Assembly: GCA_021199855.1 (NCBI GenBank)
Contig: JAJQHD010000030.1
Location: forward strand, 13,414-54,788
Reading direction: 5' to 3'
Length of the DNA stretch: 41,375 nucleotides
From: Oscillospiraceae bacterium
GTDB taxonomy: Bacteria > Bacillota > Clostridia > Oscillospirales > Ruminococcaceae
Each line of letters opens with the position of its first letter. Within the stretch, counting starts at the first letter, position 1. Of this stretch, positions 14,344-31,811 are shown piece by piece. Both the position numbers and the translations under genes were made by a program. A model generated the notes under the pieces. It ran no database searches and was not told where the DNA came from. It worked only from the letters and a program-made list of their open reading frames with translations.

Positions 14344-15678
14344 TCATCGTTGCCTCAAAGCAACCCCAATCAATCTGTCTGTCTGGTCTGCCATAAACAG
14401 CGGAATGTTCAGCACATCGCCGTCCAGTTTTAAATTGTCCAAAGAAAATCTGATGCGGAGTTTTACTTTGTCTGGGAAAAGTTCCTTGAACTTTCTGAGG
14501 CTCTTGCTGGTGGTATTGGCTTCGGACTTGACTTCAACAGGGAAAATATCATTCTCCCGCTGAATCAGGAAATCGACCTCATAGGGAGGATTGTTTTGCG
14601 ACCAGTATCGGGGAGCAACCTCAAACTGTGTCACCAGAGTCTGAAGCACAAAATTCTCCGTCAATGCGCCCTTGAATTCGGTAAACAAGCGGTTGCCTTC
14701 GCCAAAAGCGGTCGGGGCAAGCTGTGCCAGGCGGCGGAGCAGACCTACATCCACAAGATATATCTTGAAAGCAGATAAGTCGTCGTAGGCAGCAATAGGG
14801 AGACCGGGAGCTGTGTTGCGATAAACCTTGTGCACCAGTCTGGCATCCACAAGCCATTGCAGAGCATCCTCATATTCACGGGCCCTTGCTCCTTCTTTGA
14901 CAACCTTGTAAAGGAATTTCTTGTTTTCTCTCGCTAACTGAGAGGGTATTGACTTCCATATCATCGAAATCTTCGGGAACTCGCTGACATTGGGATGTTT
15001 GGCGAAGTCCCGTTCATAAGCACCGATAATCCCTGACAGAGCCTCCTGCATGGCAGAAACATCACGTGCCTCCGTCCACATCTTCACCGATTCGGGCATA
15101 CCGCCGGTCACATAGTACATCTTGAGCTTTTCGTACAGAGGGTTAAAGAAGGCATCGGGGATTGGCTCAATGGTGTCAACCGTTTCCAGATACTTTGCCA
15201 GACTTTCATCGCCGTTTGCCAGCAGGAACTCCGTAAATGTCATTGGGTCAATCTGCATGAAGTTGACCTTGCCAACAGGGAATGAAGATGGCTTTGCCAA
15301 GGCAATCCCCAAAAGAGAGCCTGCACAGGCGATGTGATACTCTGGCGCATTCTCGCAGAAGTATTTCATGGAGTTGATGACCTTGGGACAATCCTGCACC
15401 TCATCGAAAATGATGAGCGTCTTTTCCGGCTCGATTTTCTGTCCACTGGCAAGCATCAGGTTCTGTAAAATGCGACCAACATCCTTGGTTGTCTCGAAGA
15501 ACTGCTTATATTCCTCGTTTTCATCGAAGTTAAAATAAGCAGTATTTTCATAGTATCGCCTGCCAAATTCCTTCAGAACCCAGGTCTTACCAACCTGTCG
15601 GACACCTTTCAGAATCAAAGGTTTGCGATAAGGTGAATTCTTCCATTCTGATAATTTCTTTAAAATAAGTCTCTCCAT
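14344..15678 (-). CDS. AAA ATPase with DUF4143 domain
   Basis: A 444-residue protein of the common AAA_14-DUF4143 family. Walker A is GVRQVGKT (residues 25-32), Walker B is LIIFDEVQD, and the sensor region is ACAGSLLGI. The C-terminal DUF4143 part carries a restriction-endonuclease-like core, VDFLIQRENDIFPVEVKSE (D-ExK type). The cellular role of this widespread family is not established. ATG at 15678 follows GAGGAAG. It has its own promoter and converges on the pseudogene block. Confidence 0.85.
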   Translation of the reverse strand: MERLILKKLSEWKNSPYRKPLILKGVRQVGKTWVLKEFGRRYYENTAYFNFDENEEYKQFFETTKDVGRILQNLMLASGQKIEPEKTLIIFDEVQDCPKVINSMKYFCENAPEYHIACAGSLLGIALAKPSSFPVGKVNFMQIDPMTFTEFLLANGDESLAKYLETVDTIEPIPDAFFNPLYEKLKMYYVTGGMPESVKMWTEARDVSAMQEALSGIIGAYERDFAKHPNVSEFPKISMIWKSIPSQLARENKKFLYKVVKEGARAREYEDALQWLVDARLVHKVYRNTAPGLPIAAYDDLSAFKIYLVDVGLLRRLAQLAPTAFGEGNRLFTEFKGALTENFVLQTLVTQFEVAPRYWSQNNPPYEVDFLIQRENDIFPVEVKSEANTTSKSLRKFKELFPDKVKLRIRFSLDNLKLDGDVLNIPLFMADQTDRLIGVALRQR

Positions 15679-17228: not shown

Positions 17229-17258
17229 TTGACTTTTTTAAGCTGGGTATGTTACACT
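17229..17258 (+). promoter_or_regulatory. probable promoter of the CHAT operon
   Basis: TTGACT (17229-17234), 18-base spacer, TACACT (17253-17258). The match is weaker than for the other promoters here. A promoter for a special sigma factor cannot be excluded. Confidence 0.5.
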
Positions 17259-17307: not shown

Positions 17308-17337
17308 AATTATAGATATGGAAAAGTGGGGAAGAGC

Positions 17338-20300
17338 ATGAACGCATTGGAGCTATATAATCAGTACCGCGAGATTTCCGGGCGGATTCAGAATGGTGAC
17401 GACCCATTCACCGTGATTTCGGATGCGGCGAATTACTATGCCGACAGATACGGTATGGAGGAAGCGGTATCCTTCCTTGAAAAGCTCTGCGAAATGAGCA
17501 GGAAAAGAAGCACGCCCGGCGTTCACCAGAAGATAGTTGCAATATCCCTGAACCTGCTTGCCGATGTTGACCCCGACGTCACGGCTTCAATTGCAGAGGA
17601 GAATGAGAGATATTTTACAGATAGCGATGATGAACTCGCCGGAGACTTCTATTGGGCTTATGCGAATGTCATGCAGGTGCGGGAAGACTATGACGCGGCT
17701 GTTGAGCTTTATAAAAGGTGCTACGAAATCAGAAAAGAGCTCTATGGCGAATACAACTGGTATACACTCCTCCCGAAAAGGGATGTGTCTGCACTCTCAT
17801 ATCTGTTCACTCATAATGAAGAGGATTATGAATTCCTTGTCACCTTTGTCAACTCCATCGAAAACGACGTATATGATTTCTCCGAAGATTATTTTGACAC
17901 CGCAAAGGTGATTGAGGGAAAGACACTTTATGTACTCCTGTCGAATCTTAACCAGATTGACGACCTGGATGAATACAGGTATCTTCTCACACTGTATGGT
18001 GATATAACAGAACAGTACGAGCAGGCAGGCGAGCCTCTGATAACAACCCGCCTTTACAAGAACTACCTGGGCACATTCTACTTCACAACGGGAGACTATA
18101 TCCGTGCTGAAACCGCATATAACGAAGCTCTTGAAGCAAAGTCAGACCCTGAAGTGCCGGAGATACTTTCCGACGCGATGATAAGGACGAATTTATTACT
18201 CATCTATTACGCACAGAATGACCTTGAAATGGCAGGACCGCTTCTAGGGAAGATTTCCAAGGATATCGACAATGGCGAGCTGTCACTCAAGGACACATAC
18301 CGTGTCCTGTCGCTGGAGGTGAGCCTTTATTCCCAGTCGCTTGTCGGTCTCAGTGATGAAAGCAAGAAAAGGCTGAAGGAATACGCAATGGACGTCTGTC
18401 GGGACATAATATATGGAAATCCCGAAATGGATGATTGCATATGTGAAGTGGCAGGATATGTAGGCAGTTGCCTGAACAAGATTGTTTCAAGCGGACTTAT
18501 CACGAAAGACGACCTCAGGACCTGCTACAGAGCGATGGAGATAGCCTACAACAAAGCACTCCCCCAGATGAATGTAACCCAGCGTATCAGCCTCGGCGAA
18601 TTTCTTGCAATACTGTCGCAGTCTCTCGGCGAAAAGAAATCAGGTTCCTATTTCGGCGACGCCATCCGGCTTATTGAGGGAGAAAATCTTCCCCTGACAA
18701 TCCGGCTTGAGGTTTTAAGAACAGCCGGCGCATACTATTGTAGCTGTGGCTACTATGCAACCGGAATCCAGTACACTATGCAGGCTCTCAACGAGATTGA
18801 CAGCATATGGAAATCGTACATCAGATACCTGAACGACGACAGGCTTCTCAATATCTTAAGCCCGATTCAGCTGAACTTTACTAACTGCTACTCGACTTTA
18901 CGTCGGTTCCAGGATGTCAGCGCGGCTTATGAAAGCGTGCTTCGGTTCAAGGCGCTTGCTTCCCTTGCCGGAAGGGAGCGCAACCGGCTTATGCACCAGA
19001 GCGGCGTGAGACAGGATCTGATGGCAGAGATAAGAACTCTTCAGGACAGGCTTTCGGCACTCGAAAATGCCGGAACATTCAGCGACACAGAAGCTGAAAC
19101 AAATTCTGTCAAGGCGGAGCTGAGGTCTTTGGAGGCGGAATTTGCCGGGCAGTTCGGGCTTATAAAAGATGTCACCGATGTCACATGGGAGAAAGTCCGC
19201 AGAGCCATCCCCGACAACTGCGTTGTTCTCGAATTCATCTATTGCACACTGACATATAATCAGACACAGTTCGACCTGCTGGGAAAAGACCCGGAAGCAG
19301 GAGTGGACATATACATAATAAGAAAGCGCTCGGGCGATTGCCGGCTGGATAAAGTAACAGTCAAAGACGGAATGAACCTACTAGGCGATGCCGAGGAGTT
19401 CGTAGAGATAATCCAGGATGTTTCTGAAAATCCGGAGAAGGAGTCCCGGCTTGAGGAATTAAGAAAAAGCCTCTATGACCGCCTTGTGAAGCCGGTGCTC
19501 AGTTATGTTGAGGGCTTTGACAGAATCTATATCGCCCCGGACAGCTTCATTGTGAATCTTCCGATTGAGATTTTGTACGGCGATGAGCAGATACGGCTTG
19601 ATGACGGGCACAGCGTTGTGAGAATCGAGTGCGCAAGGGACTTTCTTTATGGTGTTGATAGCGAAGATTCCTCTTCCGGCGACCTGATTATAGGAAATCC
19701 GGCATATGATGTCCGTTCGCAGGATAAGGATACTAAGGACAGGAGCGAATCCGACTTCCACCGTTCGGTTTCTCTTGGCGTGACATCCGTCAGTCAGCTC
19801 CCATTTGCTTCGATAGAAGCTGAGAGAATAAGCCGGATAAGCGGCTCGCCATCCTACACCGGGCTTCTTGCCGGAAAGAATCTGCTTCTTTCCGACAGAA
19901 AGTACCGCAACATCCACATTGCAACGCACGGAATGTTCGATTTAAGCCAGAACACCAACTCAATGTTCTCGTCCTATCTTCTCTTTGCAGGCGCTGATAA
20001 CTGGTTCGAGACGGGGAAGATTGACGAGATATACGGAAACGGAATCGTCACCGCCGACGAAGTCAGCCGATTAGACCTTCATTCAACCGAGCTTGTTGTC
20101 CTTTCATCCTGCCTCAGCGGAATGAGCGACGTCAGCATCAGCAGAAGCTTCCACGGAATGATAAGCGCATTCTCGGCGGCAGGCGTTCACTATGTCATAA
20201 CTCATCTGTGGGAGGCAACCGATTTCAGCACGGCAGTACTGATGGACGAGTTCTACCGGCAGTATCTCGGGAATAAAAAATCTCCTCCGGAAGCATTGAG

Positions 20301-20496
20301 ACTTGCGAAGGAGTACTTAAGAACCGTCACAATTGGAGAGCTGAGAAGAAATAACTGGTTTGAAGACATAAGGCGGGAGAAGATGGATCCAGCAATGAGG
20401 GAGATAATGTCGCAGTATGAGCGGCTGGATGACAGAAGAAGACCGTTCAGAAGCGAAGCCTACTGGGGCGGATTCTCCTGCTATCAGTGCTATTAA
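17338..20496 (+). CDS. TPR-CHAT protease-like protein
   Basis: A 1052-residue protein. The first ~560 residues are helical repeats of TPR type (DFYWAYANVMQVREDYDAAVELYKRCYEI-like units), then a coiled stretch (~560-620), then a CHAT (caspase HetF-associated) domain to the end. The catalytic dyad is visible: His864 in IATHGMFD and Cys925 in LSSCLSGM, followed by SAFSAAGVHYVITHLWEATD. CHAT domains are cysteine peptidases of the separase/caspase clan. ATG at 17338 was chosen; an in-frame GTG at 17326 has no better ribosome site. The sigma-like gene follows 15 bases downstream with AAGGAGG, so the two are one operon. No membrane segment, probably cytoplasmic. Target unknown. Confidence 0.86.
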   Translation: MNALELYNQYREISGRIQNGDDPFTVISDAANYYADRYGMEEAVSFLEKLCEMSRKRSTPGVHQKIVAISLNLLADVDPDVTASIAEENERYFTDSDDELAGDFYWAYANVMQVREDYDAAVELYKRCYEIRKELYGEYNWYTLLPKRDVSALSYLFTHNEEDYEFLVTFVNSIENDVYDFSEDYFDTAKVIEGKTLYVLLSNLNQIDDLDEYRYLLTLYGDITEQYEQAGEPLITTRLYKNYLGTFYFTTGDYIRAETAYNEALEAKSDPEVPEILSDAMIRTNLLLIYYAQNDLEMAGPLLGKISKDIDNGELSLKDTYRVLSLEVSLYSQSLVGLSDESKKRLKEYAMDVCRDIIYGNPEMDDCICEVAGYVGSCLNKIVSSGLITKDDLRTCYRAMEIAYNKALPQMNVTQRISLGEFLAILSQSLGEKKSGSYFGDAIRLIEGENLPLTIRLEVLRTAGAYYCSCGYYATGIQYTMQALNEIDSIWKSYIRYLNDDRLLNILSPIQLNFTNCYSTLRRFQDVSAAYESVLRFKALASLAGRERNRLMHQSGVRQDLMAEIRTLQDRLSALENAGTFSDTEAETNSVKAELRSLEAEFAGQFGLIKDVTDVTWEKVRRAIPDNCVVLEFIYCTLTYNQTQFDLLGKDPEAGVDIYIIRKRSGDCRLDKVTVKDGMNLLGDAEEFVEIIQDVSENPEKESRLEELRKSLYDRLVKPVLSYVEGFDRIYIAPDSFIVNLPIEILYGDEQIRLDDGHSVVRIECARDFLYGVDSEDSSSGDLIIGNPAYDVRSQDKDTKDRSESDFHRSVSLGVTSVSQLPFASIEAERISRISGSPSYTGLLAGKNLLLSDRKYRNIHIATHGMFDLSQNTNSMFSSYLLFAGADNWFETGKIDEIYGNGIVTADEVSRLDLHSTELVVLSSCLSGMSDVSISRSFHGMISAFSAAGVHYVITHLWEATDFSTAVLMDEFYRQYLGNKKSPPEALRLAKEYLRTVTIGELRRNNWFEDIRREKMDPAMREIMSQYERLDDRRRPFRSEAYWGGFSCYQCY

Positions 20497-20511
20497 AAAG
20501 GAGGACATTGT

Positions 20512-21492
20512 ATGGAAGCGAAGAAAAGCCGGGAGCAGGCGGCGAACATAGAAGCTCTTCTCAAGGATTCTGACGAAAAGAACAGTAAATCGTCCATAAT
20601 TCAGGAAGCATACTTAAAGTACTGCGAAACAATGTCGGAAAGCGACTTAAGCGAGCTTTTCAGACTTCTCGACAGCTATTCTCAGGGCTATGTCCGCAGA
20701 CAGCTTCACGAAAAGGGACTGTATTCGCAAGACACTGAATACGATGTCATGACAGACGCAAAGCTTGAAGTATGGAATCACATAAGAAAGAACCGCAGCG
20801 AGAAGAAGGAGAATTTCGCAAACTACGCATTCGGAATTTATCGCAATAAGGTAAACGACCTAATCCGCAAAGCCTCCCGCTCAAGAAAACGGATGCCGAC
20901 GTCCTCACTGACAGGCGAGGATGGCGAGGACATTGACGTCGGAGTTGTCGAGGAGCAGAGATTCAGTGACAACAACGACCGAATCAGTGCCATGGAAAAG
21001 CTAGTCAGGATTTACTGCGAAACCTTCCTGAATCTCGCCTCTGCAACCCGCCCTGCATCAGCTCTTCTCGCGCTCTGTTATGCAAGAGCACTCCCCCACA
21101 TGCTTGAAGAGATTCCCGACAACAAGGCGACCTCAGCAAAATGGGCATACGAAAGAATGGGAGATAAAAGCGTATACAGTCTCAGAAGTGAGTCGGAAGG
21201 AATTCTTACAGAATGGTTCTGCGACAGGACAATGGTCTGGGGCGAAAGCTTCTTAAGCCAGCTGTCAGAACCGATTCCGGGCTCTGAAAAGAGCGCTCCA
21301 CTCGGTGAAGAGATGTACACTGAACGCTACAGCAAGGAAAGAATTGAGGACTGGGCGGATTCAATGCACAAAGCCACAATGAGAGAGGCTGTCAAGGTAG
21401 TTTCCTCAAATAAAGAGCTGATGGAAACTATCCGTGAGGGCTATTCAAGCCGGGATGTCCTCCAGAAATTCCGGAAAGGAGAGACAAGATGA
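20512..21492 (+). CDS. sigma-factor-like protein (sigma-70 region 2)
   Basis: A 326-residue protein. Residues ~45-125 resemble sigma-70 region 2 of ECF factors: SELFRLLDSYSQGYVRRQL, DVMTDAKLEVWNHI and FANYAFGIYRNKVNDLIRKASRSRKR. The rest does not show a clear region 4 helix-turn-helix, so it may be a divergent ECF factor or an adaptor that only binds core polymerase. ATG at 20512 has AAGGAGG. Its stop overlaps the next start (ATGA at 21489-21492), the arrangement of sigma/anti-sigma pairs. Sequence recognition and function are inferred from fold resemblance only. Confidence 0.6.
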   Translation: MEAKKSREQAANIEALLKDSDEKNSKSSIIQEAYLKYCETMSESDLSELFRLLDSYSQGYVRRQLHEKGLYSQDTEYDVMTDAKLEVWNHIRKNRSEKKENFANYAFGIYRNKVNDLIRKASRSRKRMPTSSLTGEDGEDIDVGVVEEQRFSDNNDRISAMEKLVRIYCETFLNLASATRPASALLALCYARALPHMLEEIPDNKATSAKWAYERMGDKSVYSLRSESEGILTEWFCDRTMVWGESFLSQLSEPIPGSEKSAPLGEEMYTERYSKERIEDWADSMHKATMREAVKVVSSNKELMETIREGYSSRDVLQKFRKGETR

Positions 21493-22118
21493 CACACTTA
21501 GGCGATGATGAGATTTTAGAGCTCGCGTCCAAAACATCCGACGGTCTGCCATATTCAGACGACGAAAGAGCGAAGATGGAGCATCTGAAAGAATGCGAAG
21601 AGTGCTATGACCAGTTCTATGCCGCACTCGCGCTATCGGACGCGGTTGGAAATATCGGGTTATTGTCTGCTGCGAAAAATGAAGCTACAGAAAAGGCTGG
21701 TGCCAGTAGTAAAATTTTAGCAACAATAGGTGTAATAGTCGGCAAGGTCTCTTCAGAAATAGGCGCCGCATTGCAACAGCTGGATGGGGCGACAGCCGCA
21801 TTTACCTTTATGCCCGCAATGAGCCTTGCAACAAGAGGAGCAGGCGACCATCAGAATAGCCAATCAAAGCTCGAAGACATAAATGACGAAAAGACCTTCG
21901 TCTCTTTCGACCCCAAAACCGGCAGACTCTATGTCCAGATTAATCTCAAAGACCTCCCGGAGAAGAACATAACGGTAACCGTCAAAGCTTCAGACGGAAC
22001 CGTAACAGAAATCCCGATGCAAAAAACCGGCGCCATCCTCTCAGGAAGCATAGATAGCCCCAAGGATGGGGAGCTTAAGGTTGTGGTGGCGGGAGATAAC
22101 TCCGCCGGCGGAGACTGA
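21489..22118 (+). CDS. zinc-binding anti-sigma-like protein
   Basis: A 209-residue protein. Its N-terminus has H32-x3-C36-x2-C39 (MEHLKECEECYDQF), the zf-HC2 signature of zinc anti-sigma (ZAS) factors that bind ECF sigma region 2. No true transmembrane segment is visible (only a short hydrophobic stretch near ILATIGVIVGKV), so it is probably soluble. The C-terminal ~80 residues (FVSFDPKTGRLYVQINLKDLPEKNITVTVKASDGTV region) look like a beta-sandwich. Start overlaps the sigma-like stop by 4 bases. If the sigma pairing is right, it would sequester that protein; it is also the most obvious candidate substrate for the CHAT protease. Confidence 0.6.
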   Translation: MTHLGDDEILELASKTSDGLPYSDDERAKMEHLKECEECYDQFYAALALSDAVGNIGLLSAAKNEATEKAGASSKILATIGVIVGKVSSEIGAALQQLDGATAAFTFMPAMSLATRGAGDHQNSQSKLEDINDEKTFVSFDPKTGRLYVQINLKDLPEKNITVTVKASDGTVTEIPMQKTGAILSGSIDSPKDGELKVVVAGDNSAGGD

Positions 22119-22130
22119 GATCAGAAGATG

Positions 22131-22158
22131 AGATTTGGCAGACGCGTGTGCCAAATCT
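22131..22158 (+). other. intercistronic hairpin
   Basis: AGATTTGGCA and TGCCAAATCT form a perfect 10-bp stem with an 8-base loop, 12 bases after the anti-sigma-like stop. No U-run follows, so it may be an RNA processing or stability element or a weak attenuator rather than a terminator. Confidence 0.5.
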
Positions 22159-22217
22159 GACGAAGTACAGAAATCTATATTTTTACAAAAACAAAAAGAA
22201 GAGGAGGTTTGGGGAGA

Positions 22218-22349
22218 GTGACAGCTTGGGATAAGGCAAACAAGGAATGCCAGAAGTATCTGGTCCAGAATCTCTCGCCTGTCGAGGAAGCTTATCTTGA
22301 AACGATAAGGAAAGTAGAAAAAACGGCAAGGAAGAATGCTGAGCAATAG
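22218..22349 (+). CDS. 43-residue charged helical small protein
   Basis: Starts at GTG 22218 after GGAGG and GGGGAGA, ends at TAG 22347. The sequence MTAWDKANKECQKYL followed by VQNLSPVEEAYLETIRKVEKT is strongly charged and probably helical. No family recognised. Its place between two operon genes, 26 bases before the next ATG, and its good ribosome site argue that it is real. Confidence 0.5.
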   Translation: MTAWDKANKECQKYLVQNLSPVEEAYLETIRKVEKTARKNAEQ

Positions 22350-22375
22350 AGTGAATCACGAAAGGACAACTCAAA

Positions 22376-22777
22376 ATGAAATTCAAAACAATCGACTCGA
22401 TAGAGCACTTCAAGGGCAAGTCTATTCAGGATGTGTTTTCTGAAATCGAGGAGGTTGAGTACACCGACGAGGAAACTGCTGTCATTCTCGAAGAGGCGGG
22501 GAAGTACAGGGTTCACACCTGGTGTATTCTCAAAAACGTCACCGGCTATACCACCCACAAGGACGGCGACGTAATCGGCGACTATGTCAGCCCGTTCAAG
22601 GACCATCAGATTGTCGTCTGCGACAAGCATTTCTGCGGAGTCACCGGTTCAAGCGGAGCAGTTGTCTCGATGAGCGAGCTCCTCCTTCTGGCGGACGGAG
22701 TCAAGGTGGTAAAAAAATACTCCGCCGGCAACGACGACTGGGACGCTGACGGAACAGAGTATGCGAAGTTGGTGTAG
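22376..22777 (+). CDS. hypothetical protein, CHAT operon
   Basis: A 133-residue soluble protein, start ATG 22376 with AAAGGA about 7 bases upstream. It has an acidic N-terminal half and a compact C-terminal half (VVCDKHFCGVTGSSGAVVSMSELLLLADGVKVVKKY). Three cysteines are scattered and do not make an obvious metal site. No signal peptide or membrane segment. Family not recognised. It lies between the anti-sigma-like gene and the secreted lipase-fold gene and reads in the same direction with short gaps, so it probably belongs to the same transcript. Confidence 0.65.
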   Translation: MKFKTIDSIEHFKGKSIQDVFSEIEEVEYTDEETAVILEEAGKYRVHTWCILKNVTGYTTHKDGDVIGDYVSPFKDHQIVVCDKHFCGVTGSSGAVVSMSELLLLADGVKVVKKYSAGNDDWDADGTEYAKLV

Positions 22778-25068: not shown

Positions 25069-25392
25069 ATGCCATCGGCAACAAATATTGCTAAGAGCCT
25101 TGTCCCAATTTCCCAGTTCAGCAAGGGTCAGGCTTCAAGAATTTTCGACCGGCTTCACAACGAATCTCAGCTTATCGTCCTCAAAAACAATCAGCCAACC
25201 GCTATCATCCTTTCGCCGGATGAGTACGACCGACTGACAGAGATTGAGGAGGATTACGAACTCATGCTGGAGGCATATGAGCGGCTTGAAAAGCACGAAA
25301 ATGAGCCCGGAATCCCGATGTCCGAAGTCATGGAGCACCTGGGAATAACCGAAGAGGATCTGGACGAAGCGGGAGATATGGTGATTGAATGA
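25069..25392 (+). CDS. Phd/YefM-type antitoxin
   Basis: A 107-residue protein. The N-terminal half has the Phd/YefM DNA-binding fold pattern (LVPISQFSKGQASRIFDRL, LIVLKNNQPTAIILSPDEYDRL). The acidic C-terminal half (EEDYELMLEAYERLEKHENE, EEDLDEAGD) would wrap the toxin. It is longer than most Phd proteins (~80-90) because of this tail. It overlaps the toxin by 4 bases (ATGA). Confidence 0.85.
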   Translation: MPSATNIAKSLVPISQFSKGQASRIFDRLHNESQLIVLKNNQPTAIILSPDEYDRLTEIEEDYELMLEAYERLEKHENEPGIPMSEVMEHLGITEEDLDEAGDMVIE

Positions 25393-25718
25393 ATTGGCAG
25401 GTAGAATTTCTCCCCGAAGCCGAGCAAGATATCGGCGAGCTTGACGGCTCCGTCAAAGCACAGGTCTTCAAAGGCATTGTGAAAGTCAGCCAGAATCCGC
25501 TTCCCCAGAGCGAGGGTGGATACGGCAAGCCACTCGGAAACAAAGGCAACCTGAATCTTGCCAATCTTTTGAAGATAAAGTTCAGGGATATCGGAATTCG
25601 GGTTGTCTACAAGGTTATACGGGAAGACACCATCATGAAAATTCTTGTAGTCTCCGCCCGCACGGATGAGAAGGTCTACAAGGAAGCCGCCAAAAGGCGG
25701 AGGAAGTATGATTTGTGA
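25389..25718 (+). CDS. RelE/ParE-family toxin
   Basis: A 109-residue basic protein of the RelE/ParE superfamily. It shows WQVEFLPEAEQDIGELD at the N-terminus, a KPLGNKGNLNLANLLKIKFRDIGIRVVYKV core, and a C-terminal VVSARTDEKVYKEAAKRR. Members either cleave mRNA on the ribosome (RelE) or poison gyrase (ParE); the sequence alone does not decide. It starts at ATG 25389, coupled to the antitoxin. Confidence 0.83.
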   Translation: MNWQVEFLPEAEQDIGELDGSVKAQVFKGIVKVSQNPLPQSEGGYGKPLGNKGNLNLANLLKIKFRDIGIRVVYKVIREDTIMKILVVSARTDEKVYKEAAKRRRKYDL

Positions 25719-26175: not shown

Positions 26176-27924
26176 ATGGCAGATTATGCAATCAGTTCAG
26201 CGGACTTGAGTGGCATTGAAAGAAGCTTGCGAAACCTTAATAACAATTTGGGTACGCTGAATGACAATGTCCTGGCGACAGATAACGATGTAAACCGGGT
26301 TAACTCGAATGTACAGCAGGTTTACACGGAGATCAGTGCGTTGGCAAATGAATTCCACGAGTTCGTCCTTGTTGAGAAGAGAGCTCACGAAAAATCTCAT
26401 TCACAGGCGGAGCTCATCCGACTCAATCAGGAGCTGGAAAAGAAGTTCGGGCATCACGACATCGTCAGAAGAACCACAACCGGTATTCTTCAGGCGGACG
26501 ACCTTGGAATCGTCAAGAGAGACACAATCAGCAACGCAACCGAGGAGCTTATGATTTCCACTCCCGGATATTGGCTTGCTCCCTGCCTTGTTGCACTTGC
26601 GGCTTGGATAAATGACCAGCCGGAGCTCGCAGAAAAGGCATTGAGAGAGGCTATAAGAAGAAACGACGAAAAGACATCACTCTTCTGGGCGCTCGTCTGC
26701 CGCCGTGCAGACCGTAAGCCTGCCGCACTCAAGTGGACCCAGCGCTACCTTGCAAACCAGGATGAGGAAAACCTTGACAGAAAGACTGTCATAATCCTTG
26801 ATGCATTCGCAAGCGGACTCTTGGGCTCTGATTCTGAAGGAATCGTTTCCAAGCAGATGGGCGAATGGCTTGAGCACCTCACCGAAAAGCCCGGTTTCAT
26901 CGAACAGCAGAAGCAGCAGTGGTCGGACGCTATCAAATTAAAGAAGGTTCCTCTTCAGGGCAATACATATCCTTATCTTCAGAAATACAGCAAGACCTGG
27001 CCTGTTCTCAAGGAGGTTCTTGAGGGAGCAATGCTCCATGCCCAGATTTTCGACTACTTCTACGCTATTTTCGAGCAGGAGGCGTCAACTGATTCCCTCA
27101 AAGAACAGCTTGACGAGATTCTCACAAGCCTTGTAACCGATTTTGATGAGGAAGAGCTTCCTCTGAGGAAGGAATACAGATATCATGAGCTGGTTGTCCA
27201 GTTTGACGGAGACTCCGACCTTGCCCGTCAGCATATGACAGTCGAGCAGTCGGCATTCGACGAGCACAAGGACTTCACTCAGCTTCTTACCGACGCCGCT
27301 ATGAAGCCGGAAAGCTCACACGCAAGCGTCTCAACCCAGAAGTTCGCAATCGCACTTTCAAAGGACTGGATCTCCGAAGCATATAACGACATCACCGCTC
27401 AGAACAGAGCAATGATTCCGAACAGCATCGATATCACAATCGACAACTTCAACGACAGAACAGCTGACGGTCAGAACGAGCAGGAAATGGTCGCCCGATT
27501 CAACTCCCAGGTGGACAAAGAAGAGGCAAATGCCCTTGCGCAGTGCCATCTCACAGGCTTCGAGCAGTTCTGCCTCGGCGGAGGAATTGCAATTGCTATT
27601 ATCGGCGTTATAATGTTGGCGTTCAGTCATCCATTATTAGGGCTCATCGCGATAATCGCCGGAATCGGTATGATTATCAACTACGTTTCAAAGAAGAACA
27701 CAGTCGAAGCAAACAAGCAGAACATCACCGCTCAGTTTGACAAGAAGCGCAAGAACGGCGCACTCATCATCCGTGCAACTTTGGCAGAGGTTGTCGACTT
27801 CAGAGCTGAATTTGCCCAAAGAGACGCCGAAAGCCAGAAGGTTCTCGACTTCCTTGAGCAGATAACCCCTGAACAGTATGTCAAGAAGCTGGCCGATTCC
27901 AATCGCAGAATCAATGTTCAATAA
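26176..27924 (+). CDS. coiled-coil membrane protein, first gene of Ycf46-like operon
   Basis: A 582-residue protein, family not recognised. Residues ~10-90 are Asn-rich and coiled-coil-like (LRNLNNNLGTLNDNV, VNRVNSNVQQVYTEI). A large helical middle domain follows. Residues ~466-507 form two adjacent membrane segments (GGGIAIAIIGVIMLAF, PLLGLIAIIAGIGMIINYV) with a very short turn, and the C-terminal ~75 residues are helical and charged. It probably sits in the membrane with both large parts in the cytoplasm. ATG at 26176 has GGAGGG. Two Cys lie just before the hairpin. It may be the membrane anchor for the AAA protein encoded downstream. Confidence 0.72.
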   Translation: MADYAISSADLSGIERSLRNLNNNLGTLNDNVLATDNDVNRVNSNVQQVYTEISALANEFHEFVLVEKRAHEKSHSQAELIRLNQELEKKFGHHDIVRRTTTGILQADDLGIVKRDTISNATEELMISTPGYWLAPCLVALAAWINDQPELAEKALREAIRRNDEKTSLFWALVCRRADRKPAALKWTQRYLANQDEENLDRKTVIILDAFASGLLGSDSEGIVSKQMGEWLEHLTEKPGFIEQQKQQWSDAIKLKKVPLQGNTYPYLQKYSKTWPVLKEVLEGAMLHAQIFDYFYAIFEQEASTDSLKEQLDEILTSLVTDFDEEELPLRKEYRYHELVVQFDGDSDLARQHMTVEQSAFDEHKDFTQLLTDAAMKPESSHASVSTQKFAIALSKDWISEAYNDITAQNRAMIPNSIDITIDNFNDRTADGQNEQEMVARFNSQVDKEEANALAQCHLTGFEQFCLGGGIAIAIIGVIMLAFSHPLLGLIAIIAGIGMIINYVSKKNTVEANKQNITAQFDKKRKNGALIIRATLAEVVDFRAEFAQRDAESQKVLDFLEQITPEQYVKKLADSNRRINVQ

Positions 27925-27938
27925 GGGAGGAAAAGATT

Positions 27939-28292
27939 ATGGATGCTAAAACCAGAGCTAATTTCATAAATTCAGTCGCCAGCGGAAACGTGATTCCCTG
28001 CCCGAACTGCGGTGCGGCAAATAAGTCGGACAGCAAGTTCTGCATTCAGTGCGGTACAAAGCTAGGAGCACCTGCTCCGGCTCAGACCGATTCCCCGAAG
28101 CCAGCTGCCGCTCCGGCATTTGCTCCAGTGGCGGAAGCGAGTGTTCCCCAGAATGTAGCTCCTGCTGCAAGTGTTGACATTCCTGCCCAGAATGCGCAGG
28201 TAAGATATGTTGAGGAGAAGTCGGTGTTCGCTGAAGGTCTTCCCGAGTGGGACATCGTTCCTCCACAGGTTGTTGTAAGGAGACATGCATAA
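27939..28292 (+). CDS. N-terminal zinc-ribbon protein
   Basis: A 117-residue protein. C21, C24, C35 and C38 (CPNCG...CIQCG) form a zinc ribbon. An Ala/Pro-rich linker (residues ~43-85) leads to a conserved-looking tail, FAEGLPEWDIVPPQVVVRR, which looks like a short docking motif. No membrane segment. ATG at 27939 follows GGGAGG, 14 bases after the previous gene. Probably an adaptor in the complex formed by this operon; that role is inferred. Confidence 0.75.
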   Translation: MDAKTRANFINSVASGNVIPCPNCGAANKSDSKFCIQCGTKLGAPAPAQTDSPKPAAAPAFAPVAEASVPQNVAPAASVDIPAQNAQVRYVEEKSVFAEGLPEWDIVPPQVVVRRHA

Positions 28293-28294
28293 TC

Positions 28295-28741
28295 ATGACA
28301 GCTCCTCACACGTATGCCGAATGGTCGGCGATTCTCGACAAGTTCAAGGACAGGATTGACGACGATGAGACGGTTGAAGCAATGCAGAAAGGGACCATCG
28401 AATGGCAGACAGGAGTTGCCGAGAGATTCACAAAAAAGCTCGCCGACACTGTCAACTACCGCATGAACAGCGCAACCGACAGGTTCCAGAGAGATATTTC
28501 CCGTTCGCACGGTCAGGAGGGCGCAATTGTTCAGGCTCTTCTTTCGATAAGAAAGGAGCTGAGGCTTCTTCTGAATGCTGTCAGTCTGCCAGCCATTCCG
28601 GAAGATTACCGCAAAAGATATCGTCAGCTGATAATAGATCACGCCAACGAAATCCAGAGCAATCTTGAGAATTCCGCGAGAAGCGATCGCACAGGCAAGC
28701 TCTCAAGCGTAATCCGCAACAACAGGGTAAACGCATTGTAA
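28295..28741 (+). CDS. small helical protein of Ycf46-like operon
   Basis: A 148-residue, nearly all-helical, charged protein with no recognised family. Start chosen at ATG 28295, two bases after the previous stop; AAGGAG lies ~12 bases upstream. The open frame extends to 28247, but that start would overlap the zinc-ribbon gene. Segments such as YAEWSAILDKFKDRIDDDETVEAMQKG suggest a helical bundle. It is very likely part of the same complex, since it is in the middle of a tightly packed operon. Confidence 0.7.
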   Translation: MTAPHTYAEWSAILDKFKDRIDDDETVEAMQKGTIEWQTGVAERFTKKLADTVNYRMNSATDRFQRDISRSHGQEGAIVQALLSIRKELRLLLNAVSLPAIPEDYRKRYRQLIIDHANEIQSNLENSARSDRTGKLSSVIRNNRVNAL

Positions 28742-28802
28742 AGCACTCTCTGAGTCGCCTTAAGCCGCTCATTGAGATAAAGAAACAGGAGCATAAAGCA
28801 TT

Positions 28803-30377
28803 ATGAGTGATATAGCAAAAACAAAAGAGCTCTTGAAGAGATACTCGATTGCACGTATACCTTTTATCGCGATAAACACTATAGAACGTCCCAGAACTCT
28901 CGAAGTCTTAAAGGAGATTTCAGCCGAGCTGAGTCTGCCGTTCTATGTCCACACGCTTTCCAAGGGCACATACGACATCACAACCGAAAAGGTCATCAAC
29001 GATGACAAATCGGTCTATAGCGCAATCGACTATATGAGCGAGCAGATGAAGCGCAGGCAGTGCCTGACAATAATTCTCACCGACGTTCCCGATCTCAGCA
29101 GTGACAACAGCGATTGCAGGATGATTTTGGACCTTGTAACGCTTGCGAACGAAATGGGCGGAGTCGTCATGGTTCTCACGAACAATTCCATCTGGAATCA
29201 GCTCCAGCGCCAGGGAATGGTCATAAAGGTCGATCTCCCGAGCGAGGACGAGATGTATTCCATAATCAAGAACTACATCGATGACTACCGTATGGAGATT
29301 CCAATTGAGTGGGACAACAACGACATCCGCGAAGCCGCCGCAATGCTTACGGGAGTAACCCGGATTGAAGCGGAAAACGTGATGGCGGCGCTTATTGCCA
29401 ACAAGTGTATAAGAAAATCAGATATGGACGAAGTCAGGCACGCAAAGGATCGCCTTTTCTCGGATATTTCCGGCCTTGAAAAGATAGAAGTCGACGACAG
29501 CGTCAAGGACGTGGGAGGACTTTCCGGACTCAGGCAGTGGCTTGACGAAAAGAAGGAGCTTCTGACTCCTGAAAAGCGAGATGAGCTCAAAGCGAAGGGT
29601 CTTCAGCCTCCGAGAGGAATTCTTCTTGTCGGAGTTCCCGGATGCGGAAAGTCACTTTCGGCAAAGTCGATATCAGCAAGCTGGAAGCTTCCTCTTTACA
29701 GACTCGACTTCGCAACAGTTCAGGGAAGTTTTGTCGGACAGTCGGAGCAACAGCTCAGAGACGCTCTCGCCACTGCTGAGAATGTCGCACCATGCATACT
29801 CTGGATCGACGAGATTGAAAAGGGGCTTTCGGGAGCAGGCTCTTCAAATGATGGAGGAGTTTCGACAAGAATGGTCGGACAGTTCCTCTTCTGGCTTCAG
29901 GAGTGCAAGAAGCAGGTATTTGTCGTTGCAACCGCCAACGATGTCTCGATGCTTCCGTTGGAGCTTTTAAGACGCGGAAGATTTGACGAGCTCTTCTTTG
30001 TAGACCTTCCCACACCGGATGAGAGAAGAGAAATTCTCGCCCTCTACATGAGAAAGTACCTCAAGCTCGATTTTTCGGGACCTTTTGCCGACACCATCGT
30101 CGAGATTACCGACGGCTTCACCGGTGCAGACCTTGAGTCAACTGTAAGAGACCTGGCATACAGAACGATAGCAAACCCGAACTTTGTCATGAGCGAGGAG
30201 AACATCGTAACGGCATTCAACAATGTCGTTCCGCTTTCTCAGACAAGCCCCGAGAAGATTGAAGCTATCCGCGACTGGGGCAGGGAAAGAGCCGTTCCCG
30301 CCTCCGGCAAGCCAATCGGCGCTCAGGAGCTTTCGCAGAAGAAGCAGGGACCAAAGACGAGAAAGGTTCTCGTATAA
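28803..30377 (+). CDS. Ycf46-like AAA+ ATPase
   Basis: A 524-residue protein with the architecture of Ycf46: residues 1-~235 form a P-loop-like domain without a Walker A (ARIPFIAINTIERPRTLEVL, CLTIILTDVPDLS), and residues ~245-480 a classical AAA+ module. Walker A is GVPGCGKS (~277-284), Walker B CILWIDEIEK (~330-340), and the second region of homology ends LRRGRFDELFF with the arginine finger (~385-400). The lid includes TDGFTGADLESTVRDLAYR. It resembles Cdc48/FtsH-type AAA proteins but has no protease domain or membrane segment. Ycf46 is conserved in cyanobacteria and plastids; its role is unclear. Here it is the likely motor of the operon. ATG at 28803 follows AGGAG. Confidence 0.85.
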   Translation: MSDIAKTKELLKRYSIARIPFIAINTIERPRTLEVLKEISAELSLPFYVHTLSKGTYDITTEKVINDDKSVYSAIDYMSEQMKRRQCLTIILTDVPDLSSDNSDCRMILDLVTLANEMGGVVMVLTNNSIWNQLQRQGMVIKVDLPSEDEMYSIIKNYIDDYRMEIPIEWDNNDIREAAAMLTGVTRIEAENVMAALIANKCIRKSDMDEVRHAKDRLFSDISGLEKIEVDDSVKDVGGLSGLRQWLDEKKELLTPEKRDELKAKGLQPPRGILLVGVPGCGKSLSAKSISASWKLPLYRLDFATVQGSFVGQSEQQLRDALATAENVAPCILWIDEIEKGLSGAGSSNDGGVSTRMVGQFLFWLQECKKQVFVVATANDVSMLPLELLRRGRFDELFFVDLPTPDERREILALYMRKYLKLDFSGPFADTIVEITDGFTGADLESTVRDLAYRTIANPNFVMSEENIVTAFNNVVPLSQTSPEKIEAIRDWGRERAVPASGKPIGAQELSQKKQGPKTRKVLV

Positions 30378-30387
30378 TCAAAAAAGA

Positions 30388-30424
30388 ACGGAAGCGGCTT
30401 CAGAACTGTCGCTTCCGTGTTTTC
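30388..30424 (+). terminator. internal terminator or attenuator inside the operon
   Basis: ACGGAAGCG (30388-30396) pairs with CGCTTCCGT (30410-30418), followed by GTTTTC. It lies 10 bases after the AAA gene and 20 bases before the next start. It would reduce expression of the last genes, setting stoichiometry, unless an antiterminator acts. Confidence 0.72.
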
Positions 30425-30443
30425 ATATGGGAGTGTGAATCAG

Positions 30444-30995
30444 GTGGCAAGTAGCAACAAGACCAGAAAATATATAGAGTCGCTCACCGACGAGGAGATA
30501 ATGGATCAGCTCGCCGACATGTTTGAATGGATGAACACCTACAAAGGACTTCTGATAGAAGAAATGCGGAAGAGACGTGGCGTCACACCGCAGAGTCAGT
30601 GGAGCTATCAGCCGAGCCCGGTTCAGAGCTACTATTCATCCGATGACGAGGACGACGAGGATGACAGCTATGAAGAGGATGACGGCGTTCTCGAAATAGA
30701 TTCGGACGATGAAGACGGCATTGAAATCGACTTCCAGGTTGCGCAGTCGGTTCACCAGAAGGTTGCCGGGATGTCCGAATATGAGACCAAAGAGAATCTT
30801 GAGAAGCTCCGCCACATTTCAAAATCAGGGCTTACGCCGGAGGAAATCGCCCTTCTCCACTATGAAATCGAGCAGTGCGAGCTCCATCTTTATGAGCTGG
30901 AAGGCAGGTTTGACGAAAAGGAATTGTGCCCGAATTGCGGGAACGAGGTTGAGCCAGGTGCGAAATTCTGCCGCGAATGCGGATATCATCTTTAA
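30444..30995 (+). CDS. acidic protein with C-terminal zinc ribbon
   Basis: A 183-residue protein. A helical N-terminus (YIESLTDEEIMDQLADMFEWM) is followed by a Pro/Ser/Gln linker and a very acidic stretch (about residues 63-93). Another helical part leads to a C-terminal zinc ribbon, LCPNCGNEVEPGAKFCRECG. Start chosen at GTG 30444 with GGGAG 10 bases upstream. GTG 30434 is a possible alternative, while GTG 30417 lies inside the terminator stem and is unlikely. It is the mirror image of the earlier zinc-ribbon protein, with the ribbon at the other end. Confidence 0.7.
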   Translation: MASSNKTRKYIESLTDEEIMDQLADMFEWMNTYKGLLIEEMRKRRGVTPQSQWSYQPSPVQSYYSSDDEDDEDDSYEEDDGVLEIDSDDEDGIEIDFQVAQSVHQKVAGMSEYETKENLEKLRHISKSGLTPEEIALLHYEIEQCELHLYELEGRFDEKELCPNCGNEVEPGAKFCRECGYHL

Positions 30996-31012
30996 ATCAG
31001 GAGGAATTATAA

Positions 31013-31522
31013 ATGCCAAGACCGTTATTGAAGCCGTTGCAGAACCAGTCACAGCCGGAGACAAAGTCGGGTGGAATACTGAGTGCTAAAGAGTGGCAGG
31101 AGCAGAAGAAGCAGTCGAACACGAAGATGGACAAGATGGTTCTCGACCGGTTGCTCAGGAAAAAGCGTTCGCAGAAGTATATGGACGCAATCCACAAGCT
31201 TGACGCCGGCGGACATGTCCACAATCAGAACATTGTGGATGGAATCATCGATGACATCCGCGAGGAATTCCCTGAGGTTTCGATAGAGGGAATCATGCTT
31301 GGAATCGTCTCAAAGTGCTATATAGGACCGGAGTATGAGGTTCATGCTTTAGGAATAACCGGAGAGATTCTCGAGCACTATAAGATAGGGCAGAAGATGC
31401 CCGGCGGTCTCGAAAGAGCCCGCAGTCTCGCCATGCGCGGTGGCTACGACTTCATCGAAGTCTATGTTGATTGCTTAAGATGCGTCAGCTCAAACGGGAC
31501 GGTTTCGGTGGTGAATATGTGA
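31013..31522 (+). CDS. hypothetical protein, last gene of Ycf46-like operon
   Basis: A 169-residue soluble, basic protein. The first ~40 residues are Gln/Lys-rich and probably disordered (LKPLQNQSQPETKSGG). The rest is compact with conserved-looking turns (HVHNQNIVDGIIDDIREEFP, ALGITGEILEHYKIGQKMPGGLERARSLA). No known family, no membrane segment. ATG at 31013 has AGGAGG 8 bases upstream, 17 bases after the previous gene. Confidence 0.72.
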   Translation: MPRPLLKPLQNQSQPETKSGGILSAKEWQEQKKQSNTKMDKMVLDRLLRKKRSQKYMDAIHKLDAGGHVHNQNIVDGIIDDIREEFPEVSIEGIMLGIVSKCYIGPEYEVHALGITGEILEHYKIGQKMPGGLERARSLAMRGGYDFIEVYVDCLRCVSSNGTVSVVNM

Positions 31523-31538
31523 GGATTCCTATAAGAGC

Positions 31539-31811
31539 ATGGACAGAAAAGCAGTCAGAGCGATCAAAGAATGTGCAAATATAATGATAGACATTGATTC
31601 TGATGAGGAGGTAGTAGATATGTGCAAGGCATGGAGTGATGCGCAAGAGGACGCAGCGAGGAGAGCTGCGAGAACTGCGTCAATTTTGGCTACGGTTAAA
31701 ACTGCCAGAAAGTATGGAGCTACGGACGAAGCAATTTTTTCGGACATCATTGCACAGTTTGACCTTACCGAAAAAGAGGCAAGGGAATATTTGCTTAAAG
31801 AAAGTGCCTAA
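31539..31811 (+). CDS. 90-residue small helical protein (paralogue of 25728-25964)
   Basis: A 90-residue charged protein with no metal site or membrane segment. It starts at ATG 31539 with a weak GAGG upstream. The N-terminal half reads ECANIMIDIDSDEEVVDMCKAW and the C-terminal half DLTEKEAREYLLKESA; the latter pattern resembles the C-terminal tails of Rpn/PD-(D/E)XK transposase-like proteins in Clostridia, so it may be a relic of one. A damaged copy lies on the other side of the Ycf46-like operon and a third partial copy directly downstream. Function unknown. Confidence 0.65.
   Translation: MDRKAVRAIKECANIMIDIDSDEEVVDMCKAWSDAQEDAARRAARTASILATVKTARKYGATDEAIFSDIIAQFDLTEKEAREYLLKESA
31607..31633 (+). 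repeat. 27-bp direct repeat, copy 1
   Basis: The 27 bases from GGAGGTAGTAGATATG through TGCAAGGCATG are identical to 31819-31845. This copy is inside the small gene and encodes VVDMCKA. Confidence 0.88.

Follow-up and report, generated by a model that had tools for sequence, protein, structure and literature searches.

The question raised by this locus is whether a caspase-like protease controls a sigma factor in bacteria outside CRISPR. A stretch of 41,375 nucleotides from an Oscillospiraceae bacterium (contig JAJQHD010000030.1; hereafter the window) harbors three genes on the plus strand. They encode a protease with tetratricopeptide repeats (TPR) and a CHAT domain (CHAT, 1052 aa, 17338..20496; open reading frame (ORF) and Pfam), a sigma-like protein (SIG, 326 aa, 20512..21492; ORF, profile and fold matches) and a predicted soluble anti-sigma factor (ZN, 209 aa, 21489..22118; ORF and profile match). 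The genes form one operon with a gap of 15 bases between CHAT and SIG and an overlap of 4 bases between SIG and ZN, exactly as described in an earlier reading made from the DNA letters without database searches (the sequence-only reading). We propose a protease-triggered sigma/anti-sigma switch in which CHAT would cut ZN, an account for which our belief and our doubt are evenly balanced.

The window was scanned for promoters and a housekeeping-type promoter, TTGACT-18-TACACT with an extended -10 (TG before the -10), was found at 17229..17258 (+); the scan gave 1 match as compared to 0.4 expected from shuffles. A similar promoter precedes the CHAT gene at the related loci L013, L014 and L061 in alignments inspected by eye, L013 and L014 being near copies there. 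Zero sigma-70-type promoter matches were obtained inside 20400-22400. CHAT, SIG and ZN would be made together from the housekeeping-type promoter, giving a poised switch.

The protease was identified by Pfam CHAT (PF12770) at 2e-36 with 126.4 bits (cut-off 24) and by TPR_12 at 7.2e-12; TPR matches fall within residues 106-300 and the CHAT domain covers residues 709-1047. The His-Cys dyad H864/C925, numbered from the ATG at 17338 (an alternative in-frame start is a GTG at 17326), is invariant in all three genus members carrying the protein, so that the catalytic residues named in the sequence-only reading are indeed intact. SIG matched Pfam Sigma70_r2 at 1.9e-5 with 24.8 bits, just above the cut-off of 24, and a sigma region 2 fold was located at residues 25-125 (20584..20886, +). 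A fold search with the N-terminal half of SIG returned, among the matches listed, 50 structures that by their titles are all sigma factors or complexes containing one. Both the region 2-like domain and the predicted region 2 fold of the second protein were borne out in this way. The score against the sigma superfamily model TIGR02937 was 18.4 bits, below the cut-off of 42.9, and Pfam gave no match to Sigma70_r4 (region 4). Regions 2 and 4 are both present in the sigma factors of L033, L035 and L036, and the L034 sigma factor is a near copy.

The lack of a detectable region 4 in SIG is one point for a different account, by which the trio would serve in defence or cell death: CHAT, once activated, would be the toxic effector, SIG-ZN would be its inhibitor or regulator, and SIG would not mainly be a transcription factor. 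CHAT proteases can act as effectors; the PADLOC model BovA has a weak match in the L036 CHAT (22.2 bits), TraG-type genes and, by eye, site-specific recombinases lie near some relatives, and at 14344-15678 (-) the window encodes an ATPase-like protein, for which the candidate defence model PDC-S01 gave a match of 1e-184. Against this account, PADLOC at E 1 gave no match for CHAT, SIG, ZN or a 133-aa protein, SIG matches the region 2 fold, and the sigma factors of L033, L035 and L036 have both regions. We consider the defence account distinctly improbable.

ZN showed no family above cut-off in Pfam or NCBIfam. The top PDB match of a three-row ZN profile was the anti-sigma factor RsiW (E 0.022, residues 7-46), and the H-x3-C-x2-C zinc finger claimed for the third protein is present as H32-x3-C36-x2-C39 in a ZAS-like (zinc-binding anti-sigma) helical domain of residues 1-56 (21489..21656, +; profile and alignment). 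Residues 106-134 form a predicted disordered linker (21804..21890, +), which is followed by a beta domain of residues 136-202 (21894..22094, +); in L033, L035 and L036 a CarboxypepD_reg domain above cut-off occupies the place of the latter. Among nine relatives, zf-HC2 scored above cut-off only in L036 (4.4e-5). In the alignment of ten ZN-like proteins the His and the two Cys residues never vary, L033 and L035 having one extra residue between His and Cys. This invariance would also suit a redox- or zinc-responsive anti-sigma factor of the ChrR/RshA/RsrA type, in which the zinc site senses the signal and CHAT is merely a co-transcribed effector. Oxidative stress is described, in the passages available, as the usual trigger of soluble ZAS anti-sigma factors (PMC8999054), and the L036 ZAS domain weakly matches the ChrR and RsrA models. 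We hold zinc-site sensing to be unlikely; it leaves unexplained three of the observations described below, namely the company of CHAT, the divergence pattern of ZN and the linker arginine.

Within the genus, ZN was found in 3 of 31 genomes. A search of 99 relatives detected CHAT only in G000, G197 and G204, the same three genomes as ZN, each of which carries the operon in full; the other two operon-bearing genus members are a Ruminococcus sp. and an Oscillospiraceae bacterium. In the family sample, the profile of the window's CHAT matched 1 of 297 genomes, namely its own. Four weak SIG matches in the family (G014, G032, G058 and G152) were rejected as relatives; they rank among the weakest matches to the SIG profile (7e-4 to 2e-3), and the ORFs of G014 and G032 resemble ordinary sigma factors by eye. 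Two weak CHAT-profile matches were likewise dropped: the G392 stretch (L038) is without CHAT by eye, and G516 matches the TPR range only.

Pfam CHAT at E 1e-10 detected 8 of 398 phylum genomes and 3 of 391 class genomes, the own genome being in both, which amounts to 10 distinct genomes. A sigma-like and a ZAS-like gene lie beside CHAT in nine of them (G000, G448, G474, G533, G540, G669, G741, G1077 and G1141), an association that zinc-site sensing by ZN does not explain. The tenth, G483 (L047), has a 92-aa CHAT remnant with no sigma or ZAS match nearby; three genomes of the same genus carry the full operon. Searches of the G474 order (1/12), the G533 order (1/20), the G669 class (1/72) and the G448 class (4/17) yielded no additional CHAT genome. 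The strongest case is G474, where sigma regions 2 and 4, zf-HC2 and CarboxypepD_reg all score above cut-off. The G669 sigma factor has no Pfam match and reaches 42.1 bits against TIGR02937 (42.9 required). SIG of G1077 has no library match; a profile built without G1077 retrieves it at 3.1e-22, with ordinary sigma factors at 7e-4 or weaker. SIG and ZN of G533 were missed by the clostridial profiles, the sigma factor being identified by Sigma70_r2 (3.3e-8) and the ZAS-like protein by its motif. Gene order is CHAT-SIG-ZN in four and SIG-ZN-CHAT in six of the 10 tabulated loci, a table that leaves out L034.

The association is not general to CHAT. Twelve other CHAT neighbourhoods were inspected, 11 loci from plasmid collections (from 80 matches listed of 204 and 153 records) and one Lacinutrix locus, and none (0/12) contained both genes; a sigma match lies within some kb of CHAT in two of them, L053 and L017. 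Sigma factors were sought here with a five-sequence profile and ZAS proteins by a motif scan of ORFs of at least 80 aa, tests that may miss some members. Co-occurrence of the three families, which had been proposed as a check, was found in distant genomes, and this recovery indicates that the trio is real beyond chance. The three genes form a real, recurrent unit, a conclusion in which we have high confidence.

Comparison of L013 with L014 revealed how the parts of the unit vary. Protein identity is 92.5% for CHAT and 39.7% for SIG, and within ZN it is 57.0% up to column 84 and 90.8% beyond. At the DNA level, identity is 96-99% through the end of the CHAT gene, except for one stretch of 84%; across SIG it is mostly 47-63%, a single stretch reaching 76%; in ZN it is 63-77% in the 5' half, then 88-93%, dropping to 76% at the 3' end. 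The ZN part retained with CHAT includes the linker arginine. The half of ZN that would face the sigma factor has thus been altered, or swapped, along with SIG. The pattern comes from a single comparison, and SIG of L014 has a frame discontinuity near its start: the start of the sigma-like gene at L014 7515-7748 (-) is frame-broken, and an overlapping upstream ORF carries the residues of the L013 protein start. A sigma/anti-sigma pair coupled to a protease/substrate pair would be expected to diverge in this manner, ZN contacting SIG through one end and CHAT through the other. Sensing at the zinc site leaves unexplained that the C-terminal part of ZN is kept with CHAT as its N-terminal part diverges with SIG. 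The pattern suggests that sigma/anti-sigma halves are exchangeable inside a fixed protease/substrate frame, which would be useful for orthogonal switches.

A short motif marks the candidate cleavage site. The pattern [AG][ATV]R[GSA] occurs exactly once over the full length of each of 11 ZN-like proteins, always between the ZAS and beta domains, and identity of ZN between lineages is 21-36%. In the window the motif is A-T-R-G, and the codon of R116 (21834..21836, +) specifies the predicted P1 residue of a CHAT cleavage site. Linkers were shuffled with domain borders placed by eye, giving P-values of 0.015-0.087 for the window, L061, L062 and L032, 0.025 for L013, 0.035 for L014 and 0.17-0.43 for L033-L037. 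Their product over seven lineages is 8.5e-9, which is no formal significance since five of the seven lineages had already been seen when the motif was defined; furthermore, its second position was widened to A/T/V. A prediction was made before G1141 and G1077 were retrieved: same-strand sigma-like and H-x3-C-x2-C neighbours were found in both, and the strict form [AG]-[TV]-R-[GSA] in one of the two.

Several proteases of clan CD, among them separase, clostripain and gingipain R, cleave after Arg, and a cut after the linker Arg would fit this specificity. The joint divergence and the conserved linker Arg also fit the proposed cleavage, and the linker Arg is left without explanation if ZN responds to redox state or zinc. 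The strict motif fails in G1077, which has G-A-R-G. One point weighs against the proposed site: alanine changes in Csx30, the substrate of the type III-E protease Csx29, showed no residue essential for cleavage. Cleavage of ZN by CHAT after R116 is plausible from the motif, with the balance tipping slightly towards doubt.

In the switch that we favor, the N-terminal ZAS-like domain of ZN would keep SIG inactive, and the linker together with the C-terminal beta domain would present ZN to CHAT. A signal sensed by the N-terminal TPR region of CHAT would activate H864/C925, and the disordered linker of ZN would then be cleaved by CHAT, R116 being the most likely P1 residue. SIG, once freed, would recruit RNA polymerase to its targets, genes lying outside the operon.

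The closest precedent is the type III-E CASP system. There, as Strecker et al. showed, Csx29 cuts Csx30, and uncut Csx30 inhibits CASP-sigma; the passages available describe, as here, a TPR-CHAT protease, an ECF-like sigma factor and a two-part inhibitor with an N-terminal part that binds sigma and a C-terminal part that meets the protease (PMC10028731). The top NCBIfam model of SIG was CAS_III-E_sigma (NF041236) with 27.1 bits, far under the cut-off of 100. The window's CHAT gave no match at E 1 to the Csx29 model (NF041237, cut-off 300 bits). This model was run over 12 CHAT proteins with listing limits of E 1, 0.05 and 0.01. The highest scores were those of L036 (55.3 bits) and L033 (48.4 bits), both CHATs of sigma/ZAS operons and both below the cut-off; L037, L048, L052, L055 and L057 scored 18-29 bits, and the window, L061, L032, L051 and L053 gave no match. 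In the PDB, the L036 CHAT matched the Csx29 chain 7y9x at 2.7e-4 and the CHAT chain 8d9f at 3e-5. Judged from these models, kinship with Csx29 finds no support in the window's CHAT and does find it in the CHATs of the L033-L036 group. The operon differs from CASP in that the window's CHAT lacks a match to the Csx29 model, the inhibitor is a ZAS-like protein of 209 aa as compared to the 565-aa Csx30 (compared by description), and no CRISPR-like direct repeats were found in the 41-kb window, the rest of the genome not having been searched for cas genes. The absence of CRISPR asserted in the sequence-only reading thus stands for repeats in the window and reaches no further. On our best reading, the operon works like type III-E CASP on paper without being a member, its scores lying under both CASP cut-offs tested.

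A second precedent is found in the PDB. Entries 8rot and 8rw5 (991 aa), which bear the name "CHAT domain-containing protein", contain at residues 11-55 the sequence of 8rlz, "Antisigma factor DdvA"; the CHAT part is known by the deposited name alone. The anti-sigma part weakly matches the L036 ZAS domain (E 0.18 and 0.083). DdvA has anti-sigma factor and CHAT in one chain, whereas they are separate genes in all 10 tabulated loci. We take DdvA to be the Myxococcus xanthus protein that acts with DdvS and controls a CRISPR operon. As named, it is a natural fusion of the anti-sigma and CHAT functions, which supports the link between them and lowers the novelty of the operon.

Third, CHAT-domain proteins occur in the conserved neighbourhood of ECF54 sigma factors, for which proteolytic control has been proposed, according to the passages available (PMC8999054). 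By analogy, CHAT might act on SIG rather than on ZN. ECF54 is described there as having no anti-sigma factor (PMC8999054); by this description it differs from the loci studied here, since every intact CHAT found in the phylum has a ZAS-like neighbour. The motif followed here sits in ZN, the search for it having covered the ZN-like proteins. We regard direct action on SIG as very improbable.

More distant parallels exist. Passages on EACC2-caspase systems describe a caspase-like protease gene near an ECF sigma gene with a proposed transcriptional output; that caspase is not a TPR-CHAT protein, and the passages mention a TPR protein with DUF1822, whereas a ZAS protein does not appear in them (PMC8195603). 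RsiW-SigW and RseA-RpoE resemble the proposed switch in that an ECF sigma factor is freed when proteases destroy its anti-sigma factor. RsiW is a membrane protein cut by membrane proteases. The same is described for RseA-RpoE in the passages available (PMC8103513, PMC10028731), in contrast to the soluble-looking anti-sigma factor and caspase-like protease found here. CASP, ECF54 and DdvA are precedents for the switch. The sequence-only reading had called it new in Clostridia. A CRISPR-free CHAT/sigma/ZAS operon was described neither in the titles and abstract openings listed by the literature searches nor in the passages available from PMC10028731, PMC8999054, PMC8103513 and PMC8195603, most subscription papers lying outside this scope; the claim is narrowed by CHAT beside ECF54 in print (PMC8999054) and by DdvA in the PDB.

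Additional features were observed in the window and at related loci. A cluster at 26176-31811 of the window combines an AAA ATPase (IetA defence model, 4e-32) with a pair of zinc-ribbon proteins and a 582-aa protein that has no family above cut-off, and two small ORFs at 25069-25718 resemble, by eye, an antitoxin and a RelE/ParE-type toxin. Positions 1-130 are of low complexity and extremely rich in C; this stretch, which lies inside the contig, may be an assembly artefact. A TraG-type coupling-protein gene lies near the operon in L061 and L062 (Pfam) and in L013 and L014 (tblastn), and none was found in the window or its flanks. Each TraG-type gene has a companion gene encoding 246-276 aa; kinship among the companions was seen between those of L013 and L014 only. 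Divergent genes upstream of CHAT (L013 11857-14262, L014 11470-13877) resemble, by eye, those of an M50-type membrane protease and a ThiF/E1-like protein. At L037 837-5637, genes resembling type I-E cas genes by eye lie a few kb from the G669 sigma/ZAS/CHAT operon.

Tentatively, and with more doubt than belief, we suggest that free-standing sigma/ZAS/CHAT operons may represent an older, widespread class of transcription switches triggered by caspase-like proteases, in which the linker of the anti-sigma factor carries an Arg cut site and the sigma/anti-sigma halves can be exchanged. The type III-E protease arm (Csx29, Csx30 and CASP-sigma) may have been taken from one of them, with Cas7-11 replacing the original sensor input. 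If the proposed switch is true, caspase-like proteases would control bacterial transcription outside CRISPR by a simple switch, and these operons could explain where type III-E CRISPR obtained its unusual protease arm.

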